Of a stretch of DNA of 29,223 nucleotides, positions 1 to 21,915 are shown one piece after another; position 1 is the first letter of the stretch, and each line of letters starts with the position of its first letter. The position numbers were made by a program, and so were the translations under genes. Source of the stretch: a virus. The DNA lies in the IMG/VR virus record IMGVR_UViG_3300050122_000059, positions 1 through 29,223 of that record; one strand, 5' to 3'. A model generated the notes under the pieces. The model was not told where the DNA came from and searched no databases. It was given only the letters and a program-made list of their open reading frames with translations.

Positions 1-676
1 GCGCGACCAGCTCACGCTGGTGGTGCATCCAATCCCGCCTGACGAGCTTCACGCCGGCCGCCTTGATAGGTGCCGCGATCTCGTCGTAGCGCGCCTTCTC
101 GGTCGCGTTGCGGCGCTCGCCCTGGACGACGTACGCGAACCCGCCGGTGCCGATTGCCTTGGTCAACGCCTTGAGCGCCTTCTTGTTGTCGGCGAACTCC
201 GCGAGCGCGTACGCCTCGTCGAGCGTGGCCTGTACCGCGACCGTCTTGAGCGCGTCGGGCATGGCCGCGACCTTGACCGACTGCGCGACCCGCTCCGTGC
301 TGCGACCGATGGCCGTACCCGGCTCCTTCCAGCCGACGTTGAGCATCGTCTGGATCCCGTTCGCCTCTTCGACTGCGGTCAGGTCACGGCGCACGGTGTT
401 CTCGGCCAGCAGCATCCCAGCCTCGGTGCGGGCGTCCATGGAGCCGTGAACGATGGCGGGGATGGTGACGAGCCCGGCCAGCTTGGCGGCCTCCACGCGA
501 CGGTGGCCGGCCATCAGCGTGAACGTGTCGTTGTCGCTGATCCGGACGACGACGGGCTCGATGAGGCCGATCGCCTTGATGGAGTCGACCAGCGACGTGA
601 GGTCGCCGGAGTCGTCACGATGCTGGAGAGGGTTCGGCACGATCTTGTCGACGCGGATGTCCTCGAGGATGCTCAC
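1..676 (-). CDS. ParB-like nuclease/DNA-binding protein (C-terminus beyond window)
   Basis: The reading frame starts with GTG at 676 and stays open to the window edge, giving about 225 residues. The N-terminal half has the ParB/Spo0J pattern: a 'V..I..NP.Q.R' start, 'L..SI...GLIEPVVV', and the diagnostic GHRR box (residues about 57-60) followed by 'EAAKLAGL..IPAIV'. An 'AENTVRRDLTAVEEANGIQTML' type stretch and a region that could hold a helix-turn-helix follow. The start codon overlaps the stop of the preceding gene by four bases (GTGA), so the two are probably translationally coupled. There is no ParA partner in view, so a plasmid-type partition role is not supported. In phages, isolated ParB-fold proteins near the start of the packaging region are often regulators or nucleases. 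The family call is firm; the job is inferred. Confidence 0.85.
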   Translation of the reverse strand, partial: MSILEDIRVDKIVPNPLQHRDDSGDLTSLVDSIKAIGLIEPVVVRISDNDTFTLMAGHRRVEAAKLAGLVTIPAIVHGSMDARTEAGMLLAENTVRRDLTAVEEANGIQTMLNVGWKEPGTAIGRSTERVAQSVKVAAMPDALKTVAVQATLDEAYALAEFADNKKALKALTKAIGTGGFAYVVQGERRNATEKARYDEIAAPIKAAGVKLVRRDWMHHQRELVA

Positions 677-1554
677 GCCGCCACCTCCGCTGCGAGCTCC
701 GCGGCCTCGATCGCCGGGAAGATGTACTCGGAGGCGAAGTGCTCGGCATCGTCACCGAGCTTGTCCCGGAGCGCGAGCATCATCAGCTCGATGCGCAGCT
801 CCGCGATCTCGGCGCGGGCGAGGGCCAGCAGGGCGTCAATCTCGATGAGCGCATCAGTGCGCTCTGCGTCGCGCTCGGTGGAGGCACGGATGAACTCGGT
901 GAGGATGAATGCGTCGATGAGCTTGGCGGTGACGGGGCTGTCGGCACTTGCCGCGTCTTCGCTGATCGCGAACGCTGACTGCCCATCCGCGTCGTTGCGC
1001 ATCCATATGCCGGGCACGGTCGGCGTCGGGGTTGCGGGACTGTCAGCCGAGGCATCGGTTGAGACTTCGCCGATAGTTGGCGCGTCGCGATGCTGGATAG
1101 TCTCCGGAATCGCCGTCACCGCCGTCACGGGCTCGTTCCCGGATGCCGCGCTCTTGCGGAGGCTCACGCCCAGATGCGACGCGTGAAGCTGGGTAGCCTT
1201 GAAGCTGCGACCGAGGCGCAGCGCGACGGCGGCGTTGCCCTCGTGCGCGAACTCACGCAGCAGGGCGTCCTCTTCGGGGGTCCACTTACCGGGAACGTCA
1301 TTGTTCTTGGTCATGCTCATATCCTCTCGAGTAGGTGTGGCAGTGATGGCGCGCGGGATCCGCTTCTTGCACGCTCCCGCGTACCCGTCCTTGCGGATGC
1401 CGCGGATGGTGCAGTCGGAGTGCGTCGCGGTCGGGTCCGCGTAGCCGGTGCAGGACTTGCAGCGCAGGAGCGCCGCCCCGTTGCCCGAGAGCAGCGGCTC
1501 CCACGCGGACTGCGGGATGACGGCGATGCTGCTGCGTTCGTATCCCATGCTCAC
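673..1554 (-). CDS. SANT/GcrA-like helix-turn-helix protein with N-terminal Cys cluster
   Basis: A 293-residue protein starting at a GTG with an AGAAAGGAA ribosome site (about 1562-1570). The first 70 residues carry a Cys cluster (CxxC at about 32-35, further Cys at about 48 and 62) that may bind zinc. Residues about 90-133 contain 'WTPEEDALLREF' and end in 'HLGVSL', the pattern of SANT/Myb or GcrA-like DNA-binding segments. The middle is Thr/Pro/Ala-rich and probably disordered, and the last 90 residues are strongly helical (Glu/Ala/Leu-rich). An internal ATG near 1320, preceded by GAGAGGAT, could give a second shorter product lacking the Cys cluster. Likely a phage regulator; function unproven. 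Confidence 0.65.
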   Translation of the reverse strand: MSMGYERSSIAVIPQSAWEPLLSGNGAALLRCKSCTGYADPTATHSDCTIRGIRKDGYAGACKKRIPRAITATPTREDMSMTKNNDVPGKWTPEEDALLREFAHEGNAAVALRLGRSFKATQLHASHLGVSLRKSAASGNEPVTAVTAIPETIQHRDAPTIGEVSTDASADSPATPTPTVPGIWMRNDADGQSAFAISEDAASADSPVTAKLIDAFILTEFIRASTERDAERTDALIEIDALLALARAEIAELRIELMMLALRDKLGDDAEHFASEYIFPAIEAAELAAEVAA

Positions 1555-1580
1555 GTTCGCGTTCCTTTCTGAGGTCGTAC

Positions 1581-1648
1581 TTGCGGGCGGGCGGATCGCA
1601 ACGTGCCGGCGTCGCGTTCACGAGGGGGGGCTCTACGCCCGCCCGCAA
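1581..1648. repeat. 13-bp perfect inverted repeat, 42-base gap
   Basis: TTGCGGGCGGGCG at 1581-1593 is the exact reverse complement of 1636-1648. It fills most of the short non-coding gap between the holin-like gene and the SANT-like gene in the early operon, and lies just upstream of the latter's ribosome site. There is no T-run, so it is more likely a long-range hairpin, attenuator or protein-binding site than a simple terminator. Confidence 0.55.
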
Positions 1649-1658
1649 ACTGGGTGGG

Positions 1659-1976
1659 CTACTTGGCGCCGGACTGCAGCGTCTTGACGACTGCCTTGGT
1701 CACGGCGCCCACCGACGCGCCGTTCACGGTCACGTTCGCGGGCGGCGTCGTGGTCACGTCGTACAGGCCGGCGGCACCGAGGCCGATCTTCAGGCCGCCA
1801 ATCGCGGCAACGTAGAGGCCGGTGGAGCCGAACACAAAGTCGGCAACGGCCAGGGCCACGCCGATGACGACGGCCACGAGCGCGGACCACTTGCCGCTCA
1901 GGCCGATGCCTTTGAGCAGGTTGACGAGCGCGATGACCATCAGGACGGACAAGCCGAGCGAGATTGCGGTGTTCAC
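1659..1976 (-). CDS. Small multi-pass membrane protein, holin-like
   Basis: A 105-residue protein with a GTG start and a clean GGAGG site four to five bases upstream. It has three hydrophobic segments (about residues 3-22, 32-50 and 52-68) with a short polar tail containing a Thr/Pro stretch, which fits the size and shape of class I holins. No specific holin family motif was recognised. It lies in the early-type operon, roughly 12 kb from the endolysin gene, so it is not in a classical lysis cassette; however, a transglycosylase-like gene is nearby (2,792-3,223). It could instead be a superinfection-exclusion or other membrane protein. Confidence 0.6.
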   Translation of the reverse strand: MNTAISLGLSVLMVIALVNLLKGIGLSGKWSALVAVVIGVALAVADFVFGSTGLYVAAIGGLKIGLGAAGLYDVTTTPPANVTVNGASVGAVTKAVVKTLQSGAK

Positions 1977-2009
1977 AGTGCCTCCAAAGGGAAGTGGGAA
2001 CGGGAACGA

Positions 2010-2336
2010 TCAGGAGCGGGCGGCATCACCGCCTCTGGTCCTCAGGTGCTTCGCAAACTCCGGGTAGTCGCTCACGAGCATCGCCCGTGCGGCGTGCGTC
2101 CAGAGGTGGTTAATGAGGTACGGACCCTCGCCCCAGCGCGGCGCCAGGTTGCGCGCGAACTCGAACAGCGCATAGACGCTGAAGTGGAGGTGGTTGGCGA
2201 CGCAGTAGTGGCCGCGCCCGACCATCTCGGCATAGCAACGCGGGTTGTCGGCCACGAACTTGCGCCAGCCGAGGTCGGGCGCGGTGCAACCCTTGGCCGG
2301 CGCGAGGTCGTCGATCGTGAGCTGCCCCGGCGTCAT
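2010..2336 (-). CDS. Conserved small phage protein, function unknown
   Basis: A 108-residue protein. The ATG at 2336 overlaps the stop of the RusA gene by four bases (ATGA), which fixes the start against a much longer in-frame reading. The pattern 'F..DNPRCY..MV', then 'GHYCVAN.L', then 'INHLWTHAARAM...YPEF...LRTR' resembles a family found in many siphovirus early regions near recombination genes, in which the equivalent text reads like 'F..NP.vY..F', 'Kin..y..yaR' and 'FF..R'. No catalytic motif is evident. Translational coupling to RusA suggests a DNA-metabolism setting. Confidence 0.65.
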   Translation of the reverse strand: MTPGQLTIDDLAPAKGCTAPDLGWRKFVADNPRCYAEMVGRGHYCVANHLHFSVYALFEFARNLAPRWGEGPYLINHLWTHAARAMLVSDYPEFAKHLRTRGGDAARS

Positions 2337-2788
2337 GACGCCGCCTCGAAGTCCGCACGCGTCGGCTGGTCGAACAGGCGCATCCTCACGAGCAGGCGCG
2401 GCGCCGGGCCGTACTCCTTGCGCACATGCCCGTCGAACACCTGCGAGTCGTCGAGGTACGCGATCTTGGACAGCGCGTCGGTCAGCTTGCCGATGTTGTC
2501 CCAGTCCGGCTTCACGGTGACGCGGATGAGCCCGATCGCTGCGGCGGCCTTGCGCCATTTCGGCCAGGACGGCGGGACGGTGAACGTCGCCAGCACGTCG
2601 AGCTCGACCGGACCATCGTGCGGAGTGTGGCGCGGATAGGCGCGGTCGAACGCTGCACGGATCTCGGCCTCGGCATTGACCGTGGCAGCGGGCGTGTAGG
2701 AGTGCGTGCGCCCGTCCTCGCCAGTCACGGTGCGAGCGCGCGCCTTGCCGATCGGATTCATGGCGACGGAGAACACGAGCTCGCGCAT
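2333..2788 (-). CDS. rusA: RusA-family Holliday junction resolvase
   Basis: A 151-residue protein, the usual size for RusA. RusA enzymes are dimeric nucleases that cut four-way DNA junctions, in phages often clearing branched DNA before packaging. The C-terminal half has the family signature: KPDWDN (residues 93-98), Lys101, Asp104, then LDD (112-114). These aspartates are the metal-binding acidic residues of the family and Lys101 its conserved basic residue. The N-terminus has 'NP.GKAR.R.V' and a 'YTP' segment, also typical. It follows the transglycosylase-like gene by three bases and overlaps the next gene by four, within the recombination part of the early operon. Confidence 0.9.
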   Translation of the reverse strand: MRELVFSVAMNPIGKARARTVTGEDGRTHSYTPAATVNAEAEIRAAFDRAYPRHTPHDGPVELDVLATFTVPPSWPKWRKAAAAIGLIRVTVKPDWDNIGKLTDALSKIAYLDDSQVFDGHVRKEYGPAPRLLVRMRLFDQPTRADFEAAS

Positions 2789-2791
2789 GGC

Positions 2792-3223
2792 CTAGTACCA
2801 CCCATGCGCGTAGCTGTGCGCGAGGGCGCGGACGGGGGTGCCGTAGCGGTGGCGGATGTAGACGATCGCCCGATGCGTGTTCCAGGTCGCGTCCCACCAC
2901 GGGTGACCGAGGCACATCGTGTAGTGAAGCTGAAAGGTGCCCCAGCAGCCGTGCATGCTCGACCGGCTCCACGGATGCCAGCGCGACTCACGATAGGCGA
3001 GCTTCACGAGCGCCTCGCGGTTCGTGTAGCCGTAGTGCCATGTACGGGCCTCGGCGCGGATCAGCGAGCGCACCTGCGCCTGGGACGTGTGGTAGCGCGC
3101 CTGGTGGTACGTCATGCCGTGCGCCGTCATCGGATGCACGAGCATCTCGCAGAAGCCGAGCGCGATCGTGAGCGCGGCGACGGCGACGAGCCATGCGAAC
3201 GGTCCTATCCAGCGGCGGGTCAT
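2792..3223 (-). CDS. Exported transglycosylase/lysozyme-like (SLT-fold) protein
   Basis: A 143-residue protein. The N-terminus is positively charged and followed by a hydrophobic stretch (about residues 6-28), which could be a signal peptide or membrane anchor. The C-terminal part contains 'REALVKLAYRESRWHPWS' followed by 'CWGTFQLH', matching the SLT/lysozyme-like core with the catalytic Glu at residue 79 and the 'G.fQ.' segment. Such enzymes cleave peptidoglycan glycan strands. Its place is odd: inside the early operon between RusA and two mini-proteins, far from the endolysin. Possibilities include local wall remodelling or an accessory lysis enzyme. Family call moderate. Confidence 0.7.
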   Translation of the reverse strand: MTRRWIGPFAWLVAVAALTIALGFCEMLVHPMTAHGMTYHQARYHTSQAQVRSLIRAEARTWHYGYTNREALVKLAYRESRWHPWSRSSMHGCWGTFQLHYTMCLGHPWWDATWNTHRAIVYIRHRYGTPVRALAHSYAHGWY

Positions 3224-3330
3224 CGGTACGTCCCTTCGTCGGTGAGCCGGACGAATCCGGCGTCGGACATGAGCGCGAGGAAGATCGCGTTGGCGAGCGC
3301 GCTCACTGCTCCGAACAGGCGGCGGGTCAC
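3220..3330 (-). CDS. Mini-protein, 36 residues
   Basis: A short frame from GTG at 3330 to a TGA overlapping the next gene's ATG by four bases. Its own GTG overlaps the stop of the preceding 45-residue gene by four bases. This two-sided coupling is the main support that it is translated. The N-terminal half is moderately hydrophobic (about residues 5-21, 'LFGAVSALANAIFLALM') and the C-terminal half is charged. No family recognised. Confidence 0.5.
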   Translation of the reverse strand: MTRRLFGAVSALANAIFLALMSDAGFVRLTDEGTYR

Positions 3331-3464
3331 TTGGAGTGCCTCGGCCGATACGGCGGCCGCGCGTTGGCGACCTCGGCGAGGACTAGCGCGGCGATGGCAC
3401 CGAGAACGGAGCCGGCGAGGACACCGAGCACGAAGCCGGTGAGGTAGGCGAGGGTGGTGGTCAC
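3327..3464 (-). CDS. Single-pass membrane mini-protein, 45 residues
   Basis: A GTG start at 3464 overlaps the stop of the DUF1351 gene by four bases, and its stop overlaps the next GTG by four. Residues about 5-34 are a strongly hydrophobic Gly/Ala/Leu-rich segment, followed by a basic tail ending in 'RPPYRPRHSK', so the protein is probably inserted with its tail in the cytoplasm. No family recognised. It forms a chain of coupled genes with the 36-residue protein and the transglycosylase-like protein. Confidence 0.55.
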   Translation of the reverse strand: MTTTLAYLTGFVLGVLAGSVLGAIAALVLAEVANARPPYRPRHSK

Positions 3465-4390
3465 GACAGCACCTTCCGGACGGTCCCGGTGAGGCCCAGC
3501 GCGCGGATGCTCCCGACGATGGAGTCGCGCTGCGCCTCGGTGCAGGAGACGGTGAACGTGAAGGTGTGGACGGCGGGAGCGAACATGGCCGCGTCCTCCT
3601 CCAGCTCGTCGAGGCTGTCGGGGCACGACTCGCCCTCGGCGATGGTGGCGACGATCTCGGCGGGCGTCTCCGGCTCGGCAGGCGCGATGTACGCGGCGAT
3701 TTCGGCCTTCTCGGCCTCGAGGCGGCGCGTGCGCTCGTCGGCCTCGTCGAGCGCCTTGGAGCGTGCGATGGCGGCGGAGAGGTCGAGCGTCTCGAAGTAG
3801 GTGGTCTTCGCGTCGGTCAGGTGTGTGAGCCCCAGCGAGTCCAGCGTCGCGTCGTCGCGCGCGATCCGGTCGACGATGCTCTCTATGTCCTCGAACGCCT
3901 TCACGAGGCCGTACGTCTTGTTGCGCCACTCGGCGCGTTCGATGCGCTCGAACGGCACGACCTCCACGAGGATGGGCGCGTAGTCAACGAAGTGCTTCTC
4001 GAGCTCGGCGCGCTTGCCGGCCTTCTCCCGCTCCTCGAACGCCTTGACCTGCGCGTCGATCGCAGCGGACGCGGCCTCGATGGGAGCCTGCAGCTCCTTG
4101 ATCTGGCGGTCGAGCGTCTCCACCGGCGCCATGAACTCGCGCTTCACGTCGCGGAAGCGTTGCGTCAGCGAGGTCTTGAGGCTGTTGAGGTACGCGCGGT
4201 CCTTCTTCGCCTGGGGGACGTAGCCCTCGGTGATGACGAGGCCGGTATAGTCGGCGACCAAGCGGTTGATGTACGCCTGCACCGCGGCGAAGTTCGCCTC
4301 GATGGCGAGGCCCGGCTGCACCTTCGTGAACACGAGGTCGGTAGCCTCGCGTTCGATGACCTCGGCGGTAACGACGGTCGACTTGCTCAC
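3461..4390 (-). CDS. DUF1351-family phage protein
   Basis: A 309-residue protein with a long coiled-coil middle. Residues about 40-130 read as 'Y..LVITE.YVPQAKKDRAYLNSL...L..R...VKREFMAPVE...' and lead into 'I.EL.API..A..AID.QVK.FEE..K', the characteristic DUF1351 pattern. Members sit beside RecT, Erf or exonuclease genes in phage recombination operons, and the same holds here: the annealing protein gene is 12 bases upstream. The C-terminal 60 residues form a separate acidic-linked domain ('FTFTVSCTEAQ...') of unknown role. The biochemical role of the family is not established; a helper function in recombination is inferred from position. Confidence 0.75.
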   Translation of the reverse strand: MSKSTVVTAEVIEREATDLVFTKVQPGLAIEANFAAVQAYINRLVADYTGLVITEGYVPQAKKDRAYLNSLKTSLTQRFRDVKREFMAPVETLDRQIKELQAPIEAASAAIDAQVKAFEEREKAGKRAELEKHFVDYAPILVEVVPFERIERAEWRNKTYGLVKAFEDIESIVDRIARDDATLDSLGLTHLTDAKTTYFETLDLSAAIARSKALDEADERTRRLEAEKAEIAAYIAPAEPETPAEIVATIAEGESCPDSLDELEEDAAMFAPAVHTFTFTVSCTEAQRDSIVGSIRALGLTGTVRKVLS

Positions 4391-4402
4391 AGCTCCCCCT
4401 TC

Positions 4403-5215
4403 CTAGAACGGGATGTCTTCGGCGCTCGGGTCGAACGCGAACTCGGGTTCGGGCTCGGGTTCCGGTTCGGGGTCTGGCTTCTTGTCCGCCTGCTTCTGCT
4501 TGAGCGCCTCGATCAGCGCGGATGCATCGGCCTTCGCCAGGTCGCCGACGTGGTCGATGCCCTTGCTGCGCTTCAGCGAGGCGTGGAGGTACTCGTCGGA
4601 CCAGCCCAGGGAGTGGGCGATCGCGTAGATGGCCTTCTGCTGGCCCTCTGTGAGCTTGCCGGGGGCGGTCGCGGGGCTTGCTGTGGGCGCTGCGGCGGCG
4701 TGAGGGGCCGGCGCGCCGTCATCCTCGGGGATGAGCGTTGCCTTGGCCCGATCGGACTTGCTCCACAGCGCAGTCCCCACGCCGAAGCGCATCGCACCGT
4801 TGCGGAGCATGTCGCCGATGGCTTCCTTCATGCCGTCGGGCGTGCCCGCCTTCGTCTTGTTCAGGTAGTTCAGGCCGGGGTCGCCGTAGGCGGGCTTGCG
4901 CGAACCGAGGATCGTCAGCCACGCCCACAGCCCGCCGCTGGCGTCGAGCGCAGGGAGACCGTTGGCGTCGAAGCCCATCGGCTCCCATGCCCACGTCGGG
5001 TCCACTTCGTTGAGCCGCATGGTGATGTCAGCGTGCCCGACGTAGGAGAGGTGGATGCAGGGGAACTCGTGGTAGCCGCCGCACTCGGGGCAGGACTTCT
5101 TGGTGCGCTTGTCCTTGTCGCCGGTGGCACGCGGGAGGAGCGAGATCGACTCGCTATCGAACGGCGCCTGGAGGGCTTCCCAGCCAACGAGAGCAGGCTT
5201 CGTGGATGCGCTCAC
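4403..5215 (-). CDS. Rad52/Erf-like single-strand annealing protein with SSB-like tail
   Basis: A 270-residue protein. GTG at 5215 overlaps the previous stop by four bases, which decides the start. The first half has 'LSYVGHADIT.RLNEVDP.WAWEP', then 'GGLWAWLTI', then 'MKEAIGDMLRNGAMRFGVGTALWSK', a conserved pattern in actinophage annealing/Erf-like proteins. A CPEC pair near residue 42 lies in a His/Cys-containing insert. The C-terminus has a helical segment (about 190-240), a Pro-Glu repeat linker, and ends in 'SAEDIPF', nearly the tip of bacterial SSB ('DDDIPF'), the docking peptide for replication and repair partners. It probably binds or anneals single-stranded DNA in phage replication/recombination. 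Exact superfamily (Erf versus Rad52) is not settled by eye. Confidence 0.7.
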   Translation of the reverse strand: MSASTKPALVGWEALQAPFDSESISLLPRATGDKDKRTKKSCPECGGYHEFPCIHLSYVGHADITMRLNEVDPTWAWEPMGFDANGLPALDASGGLWAWLTILGSRKPAYGDPGLNYLNKTKAGTPDGMKEAIGDMLRNGAMRFGVGTALWSKSDRAKATLIPEDDGAPAPHAAAAPTASPATAPGKLTEGQQKAIYAIAHSLGWSDEYLHASLKRSKGIDHVGDLAKADASALIEALKQKQADKKPDPEPEPEPEPEFAFDPSAEDIPF

Positions 5216-5448
5216 GGCTGCACGGCCCCCGCGACGCTGTCCGCCCACTCGACGGCAGCCTTGGCGACAGCGTCCGCGAGATCGGCGCCCTCAACGGTCG
5301 GGTCGACGTACACGTTCAGCTCCGCGAGCTTGAGCGCGAACCGAGGCTGGCCGCAGTCGCCGAACGAGATGATGCGCGGATCGGCGTCGGCGGACTGCAG
5401 GTACAGGTGCGCGCCCATGGACGAGCGCGGTGCGCGGCTGTCGCTCAT
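5212..5448 (-). CDS. Small early protein, unknown
   Basis: A 78-residue protein. The ATG at 5448 overlaps the upstream stop by four bases, so the longer in-frame N-terminus is rejected. It begins with a polar stretch and contains 'PRIISFGDCGQPRFALKLAELNVYVDPTVEG' and an alanine-rich C-terminal helix. No known family recognised. Coupling on both sides (four-base overlaps) puts it in the recombination operon just before the annealing protein. Confidence 0.6.
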   Translation of the reverse strand: MSDSRAPRSSMGAHLYLQSADADPRIISFGDCGQPRFALKLAELNVYVDPTVEGADLADAVAKAAVEWADSVAGAVQP

Positions 5449-5672
5449 GAGAGGTCGGATTCGATGGAGACGAGCGCGCGGGGAATGCAGACGGTCTCTC
5501 CAGTGCAATAGCCGTCCGCGTTCGGGTCGCTAACGACTCGCACGATCGGGAAACGGCTGCGGATCTCGGCCGCGGTAGCGGTCGCCGCGATGGGCTTCCG
5601 GTCGCTGAACTCGATCCTGACGCTGACCTCTTCGGTGCCGATGGTGACGCCCCCACACTCACAATCTGTCAT
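5445..5672 (-). CDS. Small early protein with N-terminal CxC, unknown
   Basis: A 75-residue protein starting at ATG 5672, preceded by AAGGGGAG at good spacing. It has Cys at residues 4 and 6 and two further Cys near 56 and 62, so metal binding is possible but not shown. The rest is beta-rich with 'VSVRIEFSDRKP'. No family recognised. It is the second gene after the early promoter region, behind the excisionase-like gene. Confidence 0.6.
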   Translation of the reverse strand: MTDCECGGVTIGTEEVSVRIEFSDRKPIAATATAAEIRSRFPIVRVVSDPNADGYCTGETVCIPRALVSIESDLS

Positions 5673-5710
5673 GCGTAACTCCCCTTCTTGGCCAACGGAA
5701 CGAGATCCGG

Positions 5711-5929
5711 CTATCTGCTCGGGGTCTGACTGGAGCCTTTCTCGAGCCAGGACTCGAACGCCTTGATCGGGATCCGGATCGAGCCCTTGCCGATCCGGAT
5801 CGACGGGATCAGGCGCCCGGCGACCATGTCGTAGACCGCGGGGGTCCCGACGCCGAGGCGGTCGGCAACCTCCTTGACCGTGTAGGCATCCTTCTCGGGT
5901 GCTGCCGCGGGCGCCTGCTCAAGTGCCAT
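5711..5929 (-). CDS. xis: Excisionase-like / MerR-type helix-turn-helix protein
   Basis: A 72-residue protein. I chose ATG 5929, since the longer frame runs through the promoter region and a GGAGG lies 11 bases upstream. Residues about 15-62 match the HTH_17/excisionase pattern: 'YTVKEVADRLGVGTPAVYDMVAGRLIPSIRIG' followed by 'IRIPIKAFESWLEKG'. Such proteins bend DNA at att sites and direct excision; many also regulate early promoters. It is the first gene of the leftward operon and is divergent from the repressor and integrase, which fits either role. Excisionase versus regulator cannot be separated from sequence alone. Confidence 0.75.
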   Translation of the reverse strand: MALEQAPAAAPEKDAYTVKEVADRLGVGTPAVYDMVAGRLIPSIRIGKGSIRIPIKAFESWLEKGSSQTPSR

Positions 5930-5967
5930 TGTTGGTATCGCCTCCGATTCATTGGTATTCCCAACCC

Positions 5968-5995
5968 AAGATACCGCACGCCTACCGCCTGTCAA
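5968..5995 (-). promoter_or_regulatory. Leftward early promoter
   Basis: On the minus strand a perfect -35 TTGACA (5995-5990) is followed after 16 bases by TATCTT (5973-5968), a fair -10. Transcription would start about 30 bases upstream of the excisionase-like gene and run through the early operon. The promoter overlaps the candidate operators. Confidence 0.6.
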
Positions 5996-7625: not shown

Positions 7626-7630
7626 AAGTC

Positions 7631-7676
7631 CGTGCCATCTCGTGCCTATCGTGCCATTCGTGCCATCTCGTGCCTA
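7631..7676 (+). repeat. Five CGTGCC direct repeats, probable integrase arm sites
   Basis: CGTGCC(A/T)(T/A) occurs at 7631, 7641, 7650, 7659 and 7669, spaced 9 to 10 bases apart (about one helical turn). The array begins six bases after the integrase stop and ends about 100 bases before the tRNA-like core. Matching copies lie on the far side of the core at 7899 and 7909. This arrangement fits arm-type sites bound by the integrase N-terminal domain. Confidence 0.65.
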
Positions 7677-7777
7677 GAATCCGATATAGCGGAACAGAGG
7701 CGAAGCCAATCGAAGATTGATTCAGCCGCCGAATCGTAGCCGTAAGCCATCTACCTGCGACGATGAAAACGGCTTCA

Positions 7778-7837
7778 GAGGCCTCAAAAGCCTCTATGGG
7801 AAACCATGTGTGGGTTCGAATCCCACCCCGGGCACCA
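7778..7837 (+). other. attP: attP core: 3' half of tRNA-Leu(CAA)
   Basis: The segment folds as the 3' part of a tRNA: anticodon stem GAGGC/GCCTC (7778-7782, 7790-7794) with loop CTCAAAA (anticodon CAA, leucine), a long variable arm ATGG-GAAA-CCAT (7796-7807), a T arm GTGGG-TTCGAAT-CCCAC (7810-7826), the 3' acceptor strand CCCGGGC, discriminator A, and encoded CCA (7835-7837). No matching 5' half (GCCCGGG and D arm) lies upstream, so this is not a working tRNA gene. Phages using a tRNA gene as attB carry this 3' half so that integration restores the host tRNA. It sits just after the integrase. Confidence 0.85.
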
Positions 7838-7898
7838 GGCCTGACCTGCGGTTATGCGCGACGGTGGGGGAATCTGGGAGGGTACGGCGCGGACGAAT

Positions 7899-7929
7899 CG
7901 TGCCAAGTCGTGCCTAACGTTTGTGGCAC
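7899..7929 (+). repeat. Second-arm CGTGCC repeats of attP
   Basis: CGTGCCAA at 7899-7906 and CGTGCCTA at 7909-7916 match the repeats on the integrase side of the core, with the same 10-base spacing. An inverted TGTGGCACA follows at 7921-7929. They lie about 60 bases beyond the core and just before the zinc-ribbon gene. Confidence 0.6.
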
Positions 7930-7943
7930 AAGGGGGAACGGCT

Positions 7944-8411
7944 ATGAAGAAGTGCGCGAAGTGCGGGGCCGAGTACGACGATGCCTACGACGGCTGCCCA
8001 GAGTGCGCGAAGAAGGCGTTGAAGCCGAAGGTGACGGGAAAGCAGATGGCCATCGGCTGTGCTCTCCTTCTCGTAGTCCTCGCCGGACTCGCGATCGGGA
8101 TGAACTCATGCTTCTCGTCGGTCGCATCCTCAGCTCCGAAAGATAATCCGACGCTCGCCGTGAAAGCGAATCTGGCGCTCGGTGCGGCTCTCGCTCCGTA
8201 CGTGGACACGGTCACGGCCAACTCAGCCGGCGCCGTCATCGTCACTCTCAATCAGACTTCTGCCGCGATCGCGGGCGACGCGGGGGCGAACGGCGCTGCG
8301 AAGGTCGGCGGCGGCATCGGCTCGCTGGTGCTCAACGCCGTGCCCGAGGCGACGTCAGTTGCCGTGTTCGACGCGGACAACAAGATGCTCGAGATCTCGA
8401 CGCGCAAGTAG
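7944..8411 (+). CDS. Zinc-ribbon, single-pass membrane protein
   Basis: A 155-residue protein with start ATG 7944 behind AGGGGGAA. Residues 4-26 form a zinc ribbon (CAKCG ... CPEC). A transmembrane segment follows at about 38-58 ('IGCALLLVVLAGLAIGMN'), then an outside domain of about 95 residues with a repeated small-residue pattern and little charge. No family name is recognised beyond the zinc-ribbon plus membrane layout, which is common in actinobacterial and prophage proteins of unknown function. It is the first gene after attP and is on the opposite strand to the late genes, so it may be expressed in the lysogen. Confidence 0.65.
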   Translation: MKKCAKCGAEYDDAYDGCPECAKKALKPKVTGKQMAIGCALLLVVLAGLAIGMNSCFSSVASSAPKDNPTLAVKANLALGAALAPYVDTVTANSAGAVIVTLNQTSAAIAGDAGANGAAKVGGGIGSLVLNAVPEATSVAVFDADNKMLEISTRK

Positions 8412-8448: not shown

Positions 8449-8688
8449 ATGCGAGACGTTGGGCTGGTCATGGTCAACCTGTTGACTGCATCGATGGACG
8501 TCAGCGATGAGCTGAAGAAGGCTGGGCTCGCCGATGTGGCCCATGCCGAAGTCAAACGCGCGGAAGCGATGGACAAGGCACTCCGCGCCATCGTCGAGCG
8601 GATCGACGAAGCGACTGACATAGATCGCATCAGTCGGGGACTGGCCAAAGAGCTGCAAGTGAGACGTCGTTCTCAGGGAATCGTGTAA
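8449..8688 (+). CDS. Small helical protein, unknown
   Basis: A 79-residue protein with ATG 8449 preceded by AAGGTGG at seven bases. The sequence is almost wholly helical and charged ('ELKKAGLADVAHAEVKRAEAMDKALRAIVERIDEA'). No family recognised. It lies 37 bases after the zinc-ribbon gene on the same strand and just before a strong terminator, so the two probably form one transcript. Confidence 0.55.
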   Translation: MRDVGLVMVNLLTASMDVSDELKKAGLADVAHAEVKRAEAMDKALRAIVERIDEATDIDRISRGLAKELQVRRRSQGIV

Positions 8689-8715: not shown

Positions 8716-8750
8716 AAGGCCCCGCCACCGGGTTAGGGTGACGGGGCCTT
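8716..8750. terminator. Strong hairpin terminator (copy 1)
   Basis: AAGGCCCCGCCACC (8716-8729) pairs with GGTGACGGGGCCTT (8737-8750) around a seven-base loop, with one C-A mismatch. CTCTTGTTCT follows. It ends the zinc-ribbon/small-helical transcript. The two arms are identical to those of the hairpin at 10277-10309. Confidence 0.8.
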
Positions 8751-13517: not shown

Positions 13518-13660
13518 CTATGCGGTGAGGACTGCCGACCCCCGGTAGACGAATCTCTTGCCAGAGATACCCCGCATGGCCGCGACGGTGCGCTCCATGT
13601 CGGTAGTATCCCTCGTGTTGTAGCGGAAGTCGAACTCGGACAGATAGCTGCTCAGTCCGT
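13518..13660 (-). pseudogene. Remnant of IS1595/ISXO2-type transposase (C-terminal end)
   Basis: The frame ending at 13518 encodes about 45 residues with 'YLSEFDFRYNTRDTTD' and 'ISGKRFVYRG', the C-terminal signature of ISXO2-like (IS1595 family) DDE transposases. The rest of the transposase, including the catalytic triad and N-terminal zinc ribbon, is absent: upstream of about 13660 the frame runs antisense-like through the next gene. It lies exactly between the phage late genes and the PIN/methyltransferase block. It cannot make an active enzyme. Confidence 0.75.
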
Positions 13661-14035
13661 GCCGCCCACCTTCACGCGTGATCGGCGGTGCGGCCTCGGG
13701 TCTGACTCGACCGTCTCCGGCAGCACGCGGTCGCCGCAGTCCCACGCGATCGCGCAGATGCCCGCATTGGCGACGGCGCGAGCGAACACTTCGGCGGCGA
13801 ACTCGTAGCCCTGTCGTTCCCCCGCGAGCTCGTCGAGGCGTCGCTTGAGCTCGGTGTTGTCTTCCTTTAGCCCCGCGATGTCGTCGTCTTGGACCTTGAG
13901 CCGTTTCTCCTGCGACTCAACGGTGACGCGGTAGTTCTCAAGCGCAGCCTTGTTGCGGGCGATGTAGAGGGCCGACAAGATGGCCGTGAGCGCGGCGATG
14001 AGCGTCGCATACTGGAGGATGAGGGAGAAGCTCAC
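13652..14035 (-). CDS. Membrane-anchored coiled-coil protein of the lysis region
   Basis: A 127-residue protein with one N-terminal hydrophobic segment (about residues 5-27) and a charged coiled coil (about 30-75, 'ESQEKRLKVQDDDIAGLKEDNTELKRRLDEL'). The layout is like a spanin-type or holin-associated protein. It starts three bases after the endolysin stop, so it is the last gene of the late operon. Its end abuts and slightly overlaps the transposase remnant, so its C-terminus ('RRSRVKVGGTD') may have been altered by that insertion. Not a multi-pass holin. Confidence 0.6.
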   Translation of the reverse strand: MSFSLILQYATLIAALTAILSALYIARNKAALENYRVTVESQEKRLKVQDDDIAGLKEDNTELKRRLDELAGERQGYEFAAEVFARAVANAGICAIAWDCGDRVLPETVESDPRPHRRSRVKVGGTD

Positions 14036-14038
14036 GGG

Positions 14039-14827
14039 CTACGCCACCTTCCTGATCCGCGTCCGCAAGATGAAGCCGCGCGTCGTTAGGGCCCACAGCA
14101 CCGTGCCGCCGGGGATCGCGATGAGCTTGTCGCTCTTGTGGACGATCTCCTCAACGTGCGAGTGGACGTTCGGGTTCAGCCGGATGTACGCCTTGGCGAA
14201 GGTCACGACGCGGTTGTAGGCAGGCTCCATCACGGGTGGCGTGACGGGCGCCTTGTAGCCCCACTGGCCCACGTCGGTGGCGAGCACGTAGTCCACGTCG
14301 TAGGAGATGCCGAGGCTGCCGTACTCCTTGCTGCCGTTGTGCTGGTAGAGGGAGGCGCTGGCGAGCCGCTTCCCGTCCGACCACGCGAGCGTCTGCCATG
14401 CCTTCGCGGCGGCGTGCGCCTTGAGCGCGTGGTCGCACACGTCGTAGGAGCCGTAGATGCCGACCTTGTCCTTGCCGAGCACCTCGGCGGCGCCGGCCAG
14501 GTACGCTTCGATCGCGGCGTGGTTCTCGGTGGCGGTGTCGCACGCGAAGTAGATGAACGCGTCGGCCGGCCCGCCGCATACGACGATCGCGGCCTTCGCC
14601 GTCTTCGCGCCGCTCACGCCCGCCGGGTGTCCGAGGAGCATCATCGTGGCGGTCGTCTCGTAGACGGCGGCAAGGTCGAGGTCTGCCTTGCGCAGCGCCA
14701 CGCACTCACTCTTGGTCGCGTTCTTCCACGACGGCGCACCGAAGTAGCGAATGACGACGGAGATCCCCGCCTTCTTGAGCGCGGGAATAACCTTGCTCGC
14801 GTTGGCTGCGCAGTCGATCGCCTTCAT
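14039..14827 (-). CDS. Endolysin, DUF1906/glycoside-hydrolase-like
   Basis: A 262-residue protein. Residues 1-200 match the DUF1906 (Rv2525c-like) glycoside-hydrolase-like domain: 'AIDCAANASK' with Asp5, 'VVIRYFGAPSW', 'GKDKVGIYGSYDVC', and 'YQHN...YDVDYVLA'. The domain has a TIM-barrel fold related to GH25 muramidases and occurs in phage lysins and actinobacterial wall proteins. The last 50 residues ('AYIRLNPNVHSHVEEIVHKSD...') form a separate module, possibly for wall binding. No signal peptide is present, so release would need a holin. It sits at the end of the tail genes, the normal place for a late lysis gene. Confidence 0.85.
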   Translation of the reverse strand: MKAIDCAANASKVIPALKKAGISVVIRYFGAPSWKNATKSECVALRKADLDLAAVYETTATMMLLGHPAGVSGAKTAKAAIVVCGGPADAFIYFACDTATENHAAIEAYLAGAAEVLGKDKVGIYGSYDVCDHALKAHAAAKAWQTLAWSDGKRLASASLYQHNGSKEYGSLGISYDVDYVLATDVGQWGYKAPVTPPVMEPAYNRVVTFAKAYIRLNPNVHSHVEEIVHKSDKLIAIPGGTVLWALTTRGFILRTRIRKVA

Positions 14828-14888
14828 GGCCGTGCCTCCGTCTCGGGAGCGGTTGTCGTCATGCCCATGGTCGGGCCGCTGTCAGCGC

Positions 14889-16880
14889 CTAGTAGACGAC
14901 GGTGATGGCATCCCAAGTGGCTCCGCTGTCGCGGGACTTCTGAAGGTTGCCATTACTGATGCTGCGGATGAGGAGAGGGGGGTTGCCAGCGCGGGCGAGA
15001 GCGAGTTGGCCACAGTAGACGTTGCCCGTTGTGTTCACCCCTGCATGCCCGAAATCGAGGTAGTCGGCTAGGAACCGCAGTCCTTGTGGCAAGGACGGGA
15101 TGACGGTGATCTTGGCGAGGCTCGCGCCGCCGAGGAAGAAGTTGATGGTGCCGCCCCCGGTGGGGTCGTCGTAAATCTCGACTCCCACCTTGTTCGGGTC
15201 GGTCTTGTCAGACGTGCGGACGATGCCGCCCGTGACGGTCGCGCCCGTGATTATCGGGGAGGTCATCACCACCGTCGCGGTGATGGTGCCCGCCCCGATG
15301 TGGTCTGCGGCGAGAGTCCCTTGGACTACCGCGCCGGGGGAGCCGACATCGTTGAGCGGTATCCCTCCGGCGGCGATGATGGCGGCCTTCCACGCGTCTA
15401 TCTGCGTCGCGTTGAAGGTGCCGGTCGGGCCCTGCGGACCCGTGGGGCCGGTCGGACCCGTGGAGCCGGTATCGCCCGTCGAGCCGGTCGGACCCGTGGA
15501 GCCGCCCGGGCCCTGCGGACCCGTGGAGCCGTCCAGGCCCGTGGAGCCGGTCGGACCCGTGGAGCCGCCCGGGCCCTGCGGACCCGTGGAGCCGTCCAGG
15601 CCCGTGGAGCCGGTCGGACCCGTGGAGCCGGTCAACTTCACGGCGGCAGACCATGTCGCGGTCGCCGAGTAGCAGCTCCCGTCGGCCTTCTTAATCGTCC
15701 GCGTCATCCATAGGTTCTGCCCAGCCGGGACGGTCGGGGGTGCGCCGACCCACGGCGAGGTTGGCGTCGCCACGTTGTCGGCTGGCGCAGCGGGTGCGGT
15801 CGTCGCAGCCGCGAACCAGAAGTCGATGTAGTTGCCGTTACCGCCGGCGGGTCCAGTCTCGCCGACGATACGCGCGGCTCCGCTCCACGAGGCGCCGCCG
15901 TCGTTGCTGGTGCGCATAAAGACGTCGCCCGTGGCGAAGGTCGCATGCCATGACGTGGAGCCATTCACCGAGTAGACGACCTGGAGCGGGGACGCGTTCG
16001 TGCCGGGTGCGCCATTGCTGCCGGGTGCGCCGGGGAATCCCTGAGGCCCCGCGATGCGCACGGCGGCGCTCCACGTCACGCCACCGTCATTGCTGGTGCG
16101 CAGATAGAGGTCGCCCTCCGCGAACGGAGAGTGCCAGCTGCCGGTGCCGGTGATGGAGTACTGCGTCTGCAGGAGCGGAGCGGCAGTCCCACCCGGCCCC
16201 TGTGGCCCGTTCGGTCCCTGTGGTCCGTTCGGTCCCTGCGGCCCAGTGTCTCCACCCGGCCCCTGCGGTCCGTCCGGTCCCTGCGGCCCGAGCATGCGCA
16301 CGGCGGCGCTCCACGTCACGCCACCGTCGTTGCTGGTGGAGATGTAGACGTCGGTCCCGGTGTAGGTCGTGTGCCAGTCGGAGCCGTCGAGCGAGTACCG
16401 AATCTGCAGCAGCGGCGCCGCGGGGCCCGGATCGCCAGTGAGCTGCACCGGGAGCGACCAGGAGCCGACGACGACGCCTTGCGGGTTCTTCGTCGCCTGA
16501 CTCATCCACAGCGGAGTGGTCCCGGACGGCGGCGAGCCGTACCACGGCGGCGACGCGGGGATGTCGCCGGTCGGGGTCGCGGGCTGCGTCGCGCCACGAG
16601 CGAACGTGTAGTCGACGTAGTAGCCCCATGGCGTCGTGTCGGTGGTCATCAGCGTCGCGATCGCCCACAGGTCGCGTCCATCGGTGGCGAGCCAGACTGC
16701 GAGGCCGGGCACGGGCATGACGCCGGTCGCGTAGCGGACACCGGAGATGGGCACGGCCGATCCCGCGATGGTGACGGTCAGCGTGCACTGGTCCGCTTCC
16801 ACGGACACGATGCTGCCCTGCCGGAACCGCAGAGGATTGTCCTTGGGAGCGAACCGCGCCGGGAGGTTTCCGAGGTTCAT
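14889..16880 (-). CDS. Modular tail fibre protein with collagen-like repeats
   Basis: A 663-residue protein. Residues 1-95 form an attachment domain that follows from the upstream tail protein. Then come two types of repeated module. One is a 'YYVDYTFA.../NYIDFWFA...' unit with 'PPWYG.P' and 'LWM', found twice. The other ends in '[14 protein letters not shown]', resembling an Asp-box-like sugar-binding motif, found three times (about 145-180, 235-270, 285-320). Collagen-like Gly-x-y runs link them at about 195-230 and 415-485, and a C-terminal receptor-tip-like region follows. Collagen-like fibres form trimers. Probably the receptor-binding fibre. Confidence 0.85.
15483..15632 (-). repeat. 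63-bp tandem repeat in tail fibre gene
   Basis: Two full copies of a 63-base unit (15483-15545 and 15546-15608) plus a partial third encode a 21-residue collagen-like unit ([19 protein letters not shown] and so on). The copies are nearly identical at the DNA level, so recombination could change fibre length. Confidence 0.85.
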
Positions 16881-17969
16881 CTACGCCACCGCCGTCTTCC
16901 TTGCCGTCACGGACATGTTCGCGCTGTCGAGCGGGATGGTGAGCTGGTCGAGCATGTAGCGGGTGTGCGTCCCGTCGGTCGCGACGAAGTCGAGGACATC
17001 GAACGCCTCGAGCGCCGGGTTCGGGACCATCTCCCACATCCGCTGCTCGGTGCGCCCCTTGATGCGCCCGTACGTCGTCTGTGCCGCGCTGTCGACCTCG
17101 CCTTGCGTGACCAGCAGCGGCGACGGGTAGTTGTAGGGGATCTGGCCGAGCGGCCCGTAGCGGTACGTCGGCGAGGTCGGGTCCTCGTCCCAGCACTCGC
17201 CCCGGACGGGGGTATCGACGCCGCTGCCCTCCGCGCGCGCGATCACGCCGTTGTACAGCTGCGAGAGCAGCGCCACGCGCTTGCTCGTGACGATGACCCC
17301 GGCCTCGCCATCGTGGTACGTCATGCAGGGGTCGGCCGTCGCGGGGTCGGGCACGGGGCGAAGCTTCGCCACCCCGTCGGCATCGAAGTAGAGGTCGAGA
17401 CCGGCCGTGGCCGCCAGCGCGCGCGCGTCCTTCCACGGGTCGGCCCCGCCGCCGTCCTGGAACAGCGCGGGCGAGCTGAGCAGCTTCCCCGTCTGCCCGA
17501 ACCCGATCGGGCACGCGGGCCAGCACGTGCGCAGTATCCCGGTGATCGCGTCGCCCACGTCGGTCCCGGCAGCGACGGCGTACGGGTCGGTCCACCCGGC
17601 GCGGGTGATGCGCTTGCTCCGGTCCGCGGCGCTCACCGTGACCGAGCCGTCCATCCCCTCTTCGGGGTCGGCGTCGAGCACGAACACGCCCAGGGACGCG
17701 AGCACGTCGCCGCCCGGGAGCGTCAGTCCGCGCCACGCCTGTATCTCGGCACCGGCGGCGGTGATCCACTCCCACACGTCCGGATTCGGCGCACAGGTGA
17801 GCGACAAGGACCGCAACACACCGTCGCTCGTCCCGTCCATCGTCACGGAGCCGCCGGTGACGAGCAGGTCGCCGAGGATGTCGTCGCCCAGGAGCACGGA
17901 CGCACGGATGACGGCCGTCTGGCAGCTTGCCGAGACCGCGTCTATGAACGTGTCGGAGACGGGATACAT
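16881..17969 (-). CDS. DUF5047-like minor tail protein
   Basis: A 362-residue protein. ATG 17969 lies one base after the upstream stop, which decides the start over a longer in-frame reading. 'YPVSDTFIDAVSASCQ..VIRASVL' at the N-terminus, 'SLTCAPNPDVWEWITAAGAEIQAWRGL' and 'GVFVLDADPEE' fit DUF5047-type tail proteins of actinophages, which sit at the tail tip between the minor tail proteins and fibre. The fibre gene begins one base after its stop. Probably part of the baseplate or tip complex. Confidence 0.7.
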   Translation of the reverse strand: MYPVSDTFIDAVSASCQTAVIRASVLLGDDILGDLLVTGGSVTMDGTSDGVLRSLSLTCAPNPDVWEWITAAGAEIQAWRGLTLPGGDVLASLGVFVLDADPEEGMDGSVTVSAADRSKRITRAGWTDPYAVAAGTDVGDAITGILRTCWPACPIGFGQTGKLLSSPALFQDGGGADPWKDARALAATAGLDLYFDADGVAKLRPVPDPATADPCMTYHDGEAGVIVTSKRVALLSQLYNGVIARAEGSGVDTPVRGECWDEDPTSPTYRYGPLGQIPYNYPSPLLVTQGEVDSAAQTTYGRIKGRTEQRMWEMVPNPALEAFDVLDFVATDGTHTRYMLDQLTIPLDSANMSVTARKTAVA

Positions 17970-17970
17970 G

Positions 17971-19593
17971 CTAGGGCTCCCCGACTTCGCGGCAGTCGAG
18001 GTGCACCCGCCGGCGCGCGTCTCCGGCAGGTCCGGTCTCCGCCCACTTGCGCGCCGCGCTCCTGCCACCGCCCGGTACCATGATGCGGATCCATCTTCCC
18101 CACCCGAACGGTGACTCGAGGAACAGCGCGCCGCGGTAGGCCATGAGCGCCTGTAGCAGCGTCCACTCCGCTTCCGTTCGCGTCTGCATGTCGAACGCGC
18201 CGTCGATGCCGTTGAGGGCCATGCTCACGACGACCGGGTAGGTGCGGCCGACGACGTTGAACTCGACGACCTCCTCGGTCTGCGTGAACTCCGGGTCCTT
18301 CGCGATGAGCGCGCCGAGCATGTTCATGGCGGGAGCGTCCGGCACCTTCAGGTTCCACCCCGCACCGGCCAGCGTCCCGGCGACGGCGGCACTCGCCCAC
18401 ACGGTCGCGAGCTGCTGCGAGGAGACCGTCGCGGTGACCTGCACCCGGTAGGTGAGCGCGACTCCTCGCGGCGCGGTGTAGTCGTAGAAGGCGATCGGCG
18501 TCCCGAACGTGCCCGGCACGGAGGTAGCGCCGTGCACCGCTTGCCACGTCGCGCCGCCGTCTGATGTGCGCTGCAGGCTCACGAGCGGGCCTGTGGCGCC
18601 GCTGCTCGCATTCGGGGTCACCGTGACGGCCACGCGCTGGTTCGCGCCGTCTGCGGCCGCGGAGATGGTCGGCGCCGTCGGAAGCGTGATGGCGACGGTG
18701 ACCGCCAGCGACGTCCACGCGCCGGCAAGGGCGCCGGCAAACGCCCTCGTGGCGCGCACGTAGGCGTAGTAGGAGCCGTTCGCGAGCACGGAGTCACACG
18801 CGACCGAGGGCGCGGCGGTGGATGGCGTCGAGCCGTCGATGTAGTCCAGCGGCGCGGTCCCGACAGCGGACCAGTACGGGACCGTCACCGCCGCGTCGAA
18901 CCCGCCGGCTGCGACCTGGGCCGCGGTGAACACCTTCAGCTCCCAGGCGCAGTCCGTCATCGTCGCGGCGCCGACGTTGTCCTGCCACGCCTCGATGAGC
19001 GCGGAGACGCTGACGTTGAAGACGGGGAAGCTCGTCGTGGAGATCGGCGAGGACGGTGTCGTGGTGACGGACGCGGTCGGGCGCGCGGCGTAGTAGACGT
19101 CGGCGGACAGCTCGTAGATGTAGTCACGGTTCGAGTCGGTGTACGCGTGCCCGTCGTCGACCGCAATACCGAGGAGCCCGGCGGCCGCGGCCGCGACCCA
19201 GCCCGTGCCGATCGGCGCGAGAGCGGCTCCGGCAGAGGCGGCGGCAGCAACGTTGGCGGGGCTCGAGAACACGCCGGGGAAGCCGACCTTCGGCCCCGCA
19301 CAGTAGATGCCGCCGGCCTTGAACCCGTACAGGTTCAGCGACAGTATCTTCGGCGCGGTCCCGGTCGGCTGCTTGACGCGGGCGCACGGGACGATGGTGG
19401 CGACGTCGCTGCCCGCCGGGACGGAGGGAGCCGCGAGGTGGTAGTAGATGCCGGGACTGCCCGCGGACATGCGCCGGATGTAGGTGGTGTCCAGGCCGTC
19501 GTGCATGATCGCCCCGCCGGTCCCGCCGGTGGAGGCGAAGCGGCTGTGGCGCGCGTTGTCCCACGTGATGGGGGCGACGGTCGTCTTCGGCAT
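17971..19593 (-). CDS. Minor tail protein with fibronectin-like domains
   Basis: A 540-residue protein right after the tape measure. It begins with 'TTVAPITWDNARHSRFAS', has Ala/Thr/Val-rich beta domains, and at about 300-400 an FnIII-like unit ('TAPTISAAADG...', 'LVSLQRTSDGGATWQAVHG', 'YRVQVTATVSS'). The last 130 residues contain 'PEFTQTEEVVEFNVVGRTYPVVVSMALNG...LMAYRGALFLESPFG', like the domain often found after the tape measure in tail-tip (Dit-like) proteins. Role: tail tip or distal tail structure. Confidence 0.75.
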   Translation of the reverse strand: MPKTTVAPITWDNARHSRFASTGGTGGAIMHDGLDTTYIRRMSAGSPGIYYHLAAPSVPAGSDVATIVPCARVKQPTGTAPKILSLNLYGFKAGGIYCAGPKVGFPGVFSSPANVAAAASAGAALAPIGTGWVAAAAAGLLGIAVDDGHAYTDSNRDYIYELSADVYYAARPTASVTTTPSSPISTTSFPVFNVSVSALIEAWQDNVGAATMTDCAWELKVFTAAQVAAGGFDAAVTVPYWSAVGTAPLDYIDGSTPSTAAPSVACDSVLANGSYYAYVRATRAFAGALAGAWTSLAVTVAITLPTAPTISAAADGANQRVAVTVTPNASSGATGPLVSLQRTSDGGATWQAVHGATSVPGTFGTPIAFYDYTAPRGVALTYRVQVTATVSSQQLATVWASAAVAGTLAGAGWNLKVPDAPAMNMLGALIAKDPEFTQTEEVVEFNVVGRTYPVVVSMALNGIDGAFDMQTRTEAEWTLLQALMAYRGALFLESPFGWGRWIRIMVPGGGRSAARKWAETGPAGDARRRVHLDCREVGEP

Positions 19594-19596
19594 GGC

Positions 19597-21423
19597 TTAC
19601 CTCCTCGCGATCTGGTCGGCAAGCTGCTTGAGGCTCTGGTTGACGATCGCTCGGACGTCTTCCACGGTGGCGGTCGTGCCGCTGGGGAACGCGATCTGCA
19701 CGGCACCCTCCGCGATGTAGACGGGGCGCGAGGAGGATGCACCGGCACCGGCGAACGCGGGCGACAGCGAGCCGTAGGAGCCGTAGGAGCCGCCGGCGGT
19801 CGCGCTCGCCCCGAAGGTCGCGTTCGCGCTCACGGAGGCGGCAGCGGCCATACGTGAGGCCGCGGACGTCACAGCGCCGATGCCGCCGGTCATGCCGTTG
19901 GCGAGACCGGCGGCAATGTGCTTGCCGATGCCAGCGAACACGGTGGACGGTGACTTGATGCCGAGCAGGTTCTTGACGAAGCTCACGGCGCCGCTGAACA
20001 GCGACCCCAGCGTCGAGGTCACGGCCTTCCACGCGGCCTTGAGCCCGGCGACGAGGCCGTCGACGATCTGGCCGCCGATCTTGCCGATGCCGCCGAAGAC
20101 CGTCTTGAAGATGCTGATGACCGACTTCCACGCACCGGACCAGTCTCCCGTGATGAGCTGCATCCCGAGCTTGATGACGCCCAGCACGGTGGAGACGATC
20201 GTCTTGACCAGCGTGCTCGCGACTCCGAACGTCGTCTTGATGATCGGGACGATGACGGGCGCGAGCTTGTTCCACACCGCGATGACGGCGTTGATGACCG
20301 TCGTGATCGTCTTCTTGATGAGCGGCATGTTCGCGACGACCCAGTTGACGACCATCTGGAACGTGCCGCGCATGGTCGCCGCGAATCCCATGATGGCCGG
20401 GAGCGCGGGCCGCAGTCCGTTCATGACCGCGCTGCCGAGCTTGCCCAGCGAGCCCATCAGCGTGGTGGACAGCTGCCGGAGCGGGCCCATGACCGGCGCG
20501 AAGCCTGCAAACAGGCCCTTCACCTTGTCCCAGTTCGTGTAGATGAGGAACGCGGCCGCGGCGACTCCCACGACGATGGCGCCGATCGGACCCAGGGACG
20601 CGTTGGCGAGCAGCATCGCGGCACCGATCGCGGCGATGCCGATCACGACTTGCTTGGTGGAGCCAGGCAGCTTGTCGAACATCGCGGCTAGGTTGGACCC
20701 GGCGTCCATCAGCTTGGTCAGCGCCGGGAGCAGCGCCGTGCCGACGGTCGACTGCAGCCCCAGCAGGCTGTTCTTGAACCGGTCCTGGGCACCGGCCGCC
20801 GTCTTGCCGTATGCCTCAGCCGCGCCGCCGAACTTCTTCTGCATGGCGGCCAGCGCCTCATGCGCGGTCGAGCCCTTCTTGAGCACGATGCCGTAGCGAG
20901 TCAGGATGCCGGTGTTGCCCGCCGCGACGCGCCCGACGAGCTGCCCGGCCTTCGACATGTCCATGCCCTTGACGCGCGCAAGGTCCTGCGTGAGCCCGAG
21001 CAGGCTGATCGACTTCCGGTAGTCGCCCGTGCCGACGGTCAGCTGAGTCAGAGCCCCGCGAAGCTCGCCCTTCGACTGCCCGGTGAGCTTCGACTGCGAG
21101 GCGAGGACGGCGTCGATCTGCGGCTTCACCTTCGAGAAGTCCACGCCGGTGTTCGAGACCATCGTCCCGAGCTTGGCCCATGACGTCTGTGCGTTGACGG
21201 CGACGCCTATGGAATCCTTCAGCCAGCTCGTGATGCCGAGACCGGCGATGGCGGACCCGATGCGCCCGGCCATGCTCCCAGCCGCCTGACCCATCTTGCT
21301 GAACGAACCCTTGATGCCGGTGCTGCTCTTGGCGACGCCCGACTTGAGCTTGTCGAGGTCCTTCTGCGCGGCGTCGATCGCCCGCATGTCCGACTTGCCG
21401 ATGACGGAGATGATGACGGCCAC
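19597..21423 (-). CDS. Tail tape measure protein
   Basis: A 608-residue protein with the classic layout: helical N-terminus, 'GKSDMRAIDAAQKDLDKLKS', long Ala/Gly-rich helices with several hydrophobic segments (about 265-310 and 395-440), and a Ser/Gly-rich C-terminus. Its length sets tail length; at about 0.15 nm per residue the tail would be about 90 nm, which is short for a siphovirus. It overlaps the gp10-like gene by one base (start 21423) and is followed after a few bases by the minor tail protein. Confidence 0.95.
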   Translation of the reverse strand: MAVIISVIGKSDMRAIDAAQKDLDKLKSGVAKSSTGIKGSFSKMGQAAGSMAGRIGSAIAGLGITSWLKDSIGVAVNAQTSWAKLGTMVSNTGVDFSKVKPQIDAVLASQSKLTGQSKGELRGALTQLTVGTGDYRKSISLLGLTQDLARVKGMDMSKAGQLVGRVAAGNTGILTRYGIVLKKGSTAHEALAAMQKKFGGAAEAYGKTAAGAQDRFKNSLLGLQSTVGTALLPALTKLMDAGSNLAAMFDKLPGSTKQVVIGIAAIGAAMLLANASLGPIGAIVVGVAAAAFLIYTNWDKVKGLFAGFAPVMGPLRQLSTTLMGSLGKLGSAVMNGLRPALPAIMGFAATMRGTFQMVVNWVVANMPLIKKTITTVINAVIAVWNKLAPVIVPIIKTTFGVASTLVKTIVSTVLGVIKLGMQLITGDWSGAWKSVISIFKTVFGGIGKIGGQIVDGLVAGLKAAWKAVTSTLGSLFSGAVSFVKNLLGIKSPSTVFAGIGKHIAAGLANGMTGGIGAVTSAASRMAAAASVSANATFGASATAGGSYGSYGSLSPAFAGAGASSSRPVYIAEGAVQIAFPSGTTATVEDVRAIVNQSLKQLADQIARR

Positions 21424-21893: not shown

Positions 21894-21915
21894 CGCCGCA
21901 CTCCGCTTCCGTCTC

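Follow-up and report, generated by a model that had tools for sequence, protein, structure and literature searches.

Positions 7630-7916 of the window, the whole 29,223-nt stretch of DNA that was analysed, are very probably an intact attP belonging to a temperate tailed phage, most likely read, to judge from sequence comparison, from its un-integrated form (circular, replicating or packaged). The phage is an ordinary temperate phage of uncultured soil Coriobacteriia and its attP is of a well-known kind. The arrangement expected of a tyrosine integrase that targets a tRNA gene was found, with the integrase gene adjoining the site, a core that corresponds to the 3' end of a host tRNA, arms built from a single motif, and both an attB and an attR that fit. 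The features are listed in Table 1.

Table 1. Attachment site and neighbouring features of the window
Feature	Positions	Strand	Evidence or remark
Early module: ParB-like, D5-like regulator, DUF1351, single-strand annealing protein, Xis-like	1..5995	-	Order kept in C162
Small HTH_17 protein	5711..5995	-	PHROG 66 excisionase E 7.8e-9; Pfam HTH_17 E 9.6e-12
Tyrosine integrase, 386 aa	6465..7625	+	PHROG 1 integrase E 8e-47; Pfam Phage_integrase E 1.2e-12, Phage_int_SAM_3
Left (P) arm, five direct CGTGCC(A/T) sites	7630..7676	+	Identical in attR contig L002
Common core	7780..7837	+	100% identical to host attB G001:C188/L003 and attR L002
P' spacer, core to right arm sites	7838..7897	+	Carries TGACCTGC at 7842
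Right (P') arm, two direct TCGTGCC(A/T) sites	7898..7916	+	Start 60 bp after CCA
155-aa protein, first phage gene right of core	7944..8411	+	Cys-rich N-terminus, membrane segment, outer domain
79-aa ORF	8449..8688	+	No confident family
Strong hairpin; nothing clearly terminator-like precedes it on the P' side	8717..8749	+	-32.9 kcal/mol, z -3.5
Late module: spanin-like, endolysin, fibre, tail, tape measure, head-tail adaptor, major capsid, protease, portal	13652..29197	-	Relatives on host MAG contigs C102 and C162

The core comprises 58 bp of a tRNA-Leu(CAA), from the anticodon stem to the CCA end, with the anticodon at 7785-7787. An exact search of genome_contigs with a 48-nt stretch of the core gave a single match, contig PKWR01000173 of the Coriobacteriia MAG palsa_660, which also ranked first among the 298 genomes of the class search. 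In this MAG the complete gene is called as tRNA-Leu (caa), and the 58 nt at its 3' end agree with window positions 7780-7837 at every base (58/58); ARAGORN called no complete tRNA in the 29,223-nt window. The sequence-only reading had recognised the 3' end of a tRNA-Leu(CAA), as the host gene confirms, but had set its limits two bases too wide, at 7778-7837.

An integrase search revealed the viral contig IMGVR_UViG_3300050124_000069 (L002), which is 100% identical to window positions 1436-7837 over 6,402 bp and breaks away exactly after the tRNA CCA. The 68 bases of L002 past the core are identical (68/68) to palsa_660 DNA downstream of tRNA-Leu(CAA), whereas the window past the core is like that host flank at 18 of 68 positions. 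Thus, L002 represents attR, palsa_660 the empty attB and the window the P-core-P' arrangement. The advice to look for genomes with a matching tRNA-Leu(CAA) 3' end and for integrated relatives was in this way rewarded with an attB in a Coriobacteriia MAG and an attR in a viral contig, and the DNA to the right of 7838, which might have turned out to be conserved host sequence, differs from the host flank of the same tRNA. A predicted attL, composed in silico of the host 5' half, the window core and P', restores a tRNA-Leu(caa) according to ARAGORN, which called no tRNA in attP alone or in attR alone. An exact search of viral_contigs with the P' side returned no natural attL, a second scan with the host B' flank returned the attR contig L002 as its sole match, and the integrase search of genome_contigs gave no close relative.

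The arms display six exact copies of TCGTGCC(A/T), all direct (7640, 7649, 7658, 7668, 7898 and 7908), which are the only ones in the 29,223 bases. A near copy with one mismatch at 7630-7637, CCGTGCCA, constitutes a fifth left site, and the spacing is 10, 9, 9 and 10 bp on the left and 10 bp on the right. The seven direct repeats described from the letters, five to the left and two to the right of the core, are thus recovered as six exact copies and one near copy placed 9-10 bp apart. Six copies across 29 kb are unremarkable by themselves (shuffle mean 2.8; 9 of 100 shuffles reach 6). Their concentration within 7626-7945 is far above chance: 20,000 dinucleotide shuffles gave a mean of 0.02 and a maximum of 2 for that interval, and the two right-arm copies occurred in 0 of 20,000. 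An inverted copy proposed in the same reading is weak, being a near-chance match at 7924-7931; it carries one mismatch and a comparable one-mismatch inverted match lies at 7607, and it was therefore given no weight. The element TGACCTGC or its complement was also observed close to the core in several divergent Coriobacteriia att sites, mostly within ~25 bp past the CCA (window 7842; L012 2740/2760; L013 2717; L020 2675/2775; L058 right flank).

The presence of both arms beside one core had been taken to show an attP. The conclusion holds here, but the argument alone is unsafe, as three Coriobacteriia-class genomes display a right-hand repeat pair at an integrase-side core, and in related genomes (L012, L013 and L020) such a core is followed, 60 bp past the CCA, by a pair of a different motif. 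Since Coriobacteriia lysogens too carry a right-hand pair at the integrase-side core, a matching motif is needed to mark a single attP. The G138 chromosome, in which tRNA-Glu 3' ends at 956 and 987 kb border a 31-kb prophage (L053 and L054; G138:C1 956137 and 987343), served as a positive control. Its attL comprises an intact tRNA-Glu followed 60 bp on by CGTTACATC-GCGTTACATC, and the P arm on the integrase side also consists of CGTTACATC-GCGTTACATC, so that P and P' are divided between attR and attL just as the sequence-only reading had presumed for an integrated prophage. The integrase-side core of G138 is also trailed at +60 by another pair, CGTGACA. Further loci were drawn from G006 (L055) and G089 (L056-L058). 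At the tRNA-Arg of G089, the attL carries CCCGCAA, the integrase-side core has CCCGCAA as left arm and GGCACAC as right arm, and another core is flanked on each side by GGCACAC. The matching motifs suggest that each attL is tied to its own integrase, and the simplest reading of the foreign pairs in G138 and G089 is that of stacked integrations, in which a newcomer would have entered the tRNA and pushed the older P' arm behind its own integrase-side core. The possibility that the right-hand repeats of L012 and L013 deprive two-sided arms of meaning was rejected, as a foreign pair proves to have its own motif once the matching attL of G138 and the loci of G089 are considered. Across the related Coriobacteriia elements, a direct-repeat pair lies ~60 bp after the tRNA CCA with a 10-11 bp step and an element-specific motif, a geometry that the window pair at 7898 shares.

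The same loci bear on an alternative in which serial accretion placed a different element to the right of the core, making the P' arm and the genes beyond it foreign to the integrase on the left. L012, L013 and L020 show that such an order of integrase, P arm, core and foreign pair does arise. However, their left and right motifs differ while the window has TCGTGCC(A/T) on both sides, and the early and late modules of the window are complementary, and the relative C162 (20,196 bp), of the host MAG palsa_660, carries both kinds on one contig. This alternative is largely refuted already and is very improbable. Equally improbable is a chimeric assembly joined within the conserved tRNA sequence. 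Repeats of this kind (58 bp of tRNA) are well known to cause false joins, and it is at precisely this point that the attP and attR contigs part. However, the right side bears the matching arm motif and is the phage's own late module, with synteny to C162 maintained through the corresponding region.

The genes to the right of the core are those of a phage, as had been claimed, and include portal, protease, capsid, tail, lysin and fibre genes. C162 presents the order tail, lysis, Sie, integrase, early genes, ParB, HNH, TerS and TerL, which in window terms reads 18.5k to 13.65k, a Sie-like gene with a short integrase, 4.7k to 1, ~3.1 kb and then the L007 genes to TerL; a second contig of the host MAG, C102, extends from portal to tail. 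L007, a contig of the metagenome that also yielded L002, shares 4,272 bp with the right end of the window at 99.98% identity and continues into TerL, TerS and HNH. The gene set of Caudoviricetes is therefore present, with portal, major capsid, protease and tail genes in the window and the terminase, which lies outside it, on the overlapping L007. Because C162 joins tail and lysis genes to early genes, and ParB to the terminase, the two ends of the window lie close together in this relative. The window is classed as linear in IMG/VR, and no terminal repeat was found at its ends. As the contig is linear and does not extend to the terminase region, closure of its ends rests on C162 and L007. At L007 9570-9671, the ~100% identity to the window ends at window position 24952 with an abrupt switch to unrelated sequence at a gene boundary, which may reflect a recent mosaic exchange between coexisting phages; L007 may thus be a mosaic relative. 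Where the window has the 386-aa arm-binding type, C162 carries at 5280-5909 (L050) a short, 210-aa integrase with the catalytic domain only, and the integration module appears to have been swapped between this relative and the window phage.

The sequence-only reading had offered a circular or packaged phage, or the junction of tandem prophages. The intact attP on which both depend stands, attR and attB fitting it base for base, and it is intact under either form. Should the junction be the internal attP between two head-to-tail prophage copies in one chromosome, the sequence would be identical; such tandems at a single att site have been described (PMC9934374), and the existence of the attR of the window phage means that lysogens are present. 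The tandem requires an extra event, and the phage modules lie on either side of the core with no duplicated segment in the contig. It is an unlikely arrangement, and the free form is more likely.

The integrase, of the lambda type, would use its N-terminal domain to contact the arm sites, five in P and two in P', and strand exchange with the host tRNA-Leu(CAA) 3' end would take place inside the 58-bp core. The nearest arm sites lie 109 and 111 bp from the anticodon, which suggests strand exchange there, and the crossover is most likely near the anticodon loop. Integration would generate an attL in which the host tRNA 5' half, the phage core and P' form a whole tRNA, and an attR comprising the integrase gene, the P arm, the core and host downstream DNA. 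Excision would be performed by an Xis-like protein, for which the HTH_17 protein is, by its family matches, a candidate excisionase (recombination directionality factor). At the far end of the early module, the ParB-like gene runs off the left end of the window; its interpretation as a truncated gene was discarded, as the contig end simply cuts through the reading frame.

Upon integration, the host terminator that follows tRNA-Leu lands on the attR side, and no fold better than random was found on the P' side from the core to 7943. Because the host terminator moves to attR and the P' side presents no terminator-like fold ahead of two phage genes, there is room for read-through from the tRNA promoter into 7944-8411. 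Integration could conceivably act as an expression switch, although we consider this rather doubtful, with the tRNA promoter driving 7944-8411 in the lysogen and integrase transcripts reading into it in the free circle. The hairpin that follows the 79-aa ORF was not called by a strict terminator scan. In G001:C162, the gene that follows the integrase encodes a homologue of the 7944-8411 product (41% identity over 93 aa, E 8e-14), and this homologue matches the PHROG Sie-like family (3.3e-9), so that the 7944-8411 product is superinfection-exclusion-like by homology. Contig G111:C109, which matches window positions 7945-8008, was rejected as evidence of host DNA there, the common part being only a 23-residue Cys-rich N-terminus. 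Further right, 10349-12010 encodes a fusion of an N4/N6 methyltransferase with an Mrr/NA-iREase-like nuclease domain, and a PIN-domain gene extends over 12142-12696; in the interval from attP to the lysis genes they may represent cargo of the single-chain restriction-modification type.

The attP of mycobacteriophage Omega and Cluster J also corresponds to tRNA-Leu-CAA, at attB-11 (PMC3706429, PMC10865867), with strand exchange drawn at the anticodon loop (PMC3706429). In both Omega and the window phage, the integrase gene lies upstream of attP, the left edge of the core falls at the anticodon loop and the core takes in the 3' half of tRNA-Leu-CAA, the tRNA is rebuilt at attL, direct ~10-bp arm sites are grouped on the left and right, and an HTH gene upstream of the integrase is the candidate RDF. 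The window phage differs in its Coriobacteriia host class and as a phage, in a core of 58 rather than 44 bp, in the arm motif (TCGTGCC(A/T) against TGCATAC) and in site number (5+2 against 2+2). Heterobivalent tyrosine recombination of the lambda/L5 kind resembles the window in having a core, P and P' arm sites and an Xis-like neighbour, the N-terminal arm-binding domain, the arm binding and any bending sites being putative here; in contrast to lambda/L5, the window core lies inside a tRNA gene. The G138 prophage shares a related integrase (37%), a tRNA 3' core, the 60-bp CCA-to-P' spacing and the 10-bp step, and differs in being integrated with its arms split, in its arm motif and in its use of tRNA-Glu. 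In tRNA-dependent lysogeny, a short core destroys the host tRNA and the phage carries a whole replacement tRNA (PMC10865867); this was rejected for the window phage, whose tRNA is rebuilt in the predicted attL and whose window holds no complete tRNA.

Of the four attachment sequences, attP, attR and attB are thus in hand for a phage of uncultured soil Coriobacteriia, which assigns its host at the base-pair level, something rare for metagenomic phages. These observations also suggest a rule for reading such sites from the arm motif 60 bp past the tRNA CCA: a match between the two sides would indicate an attP, and a mismatch stacked elements.
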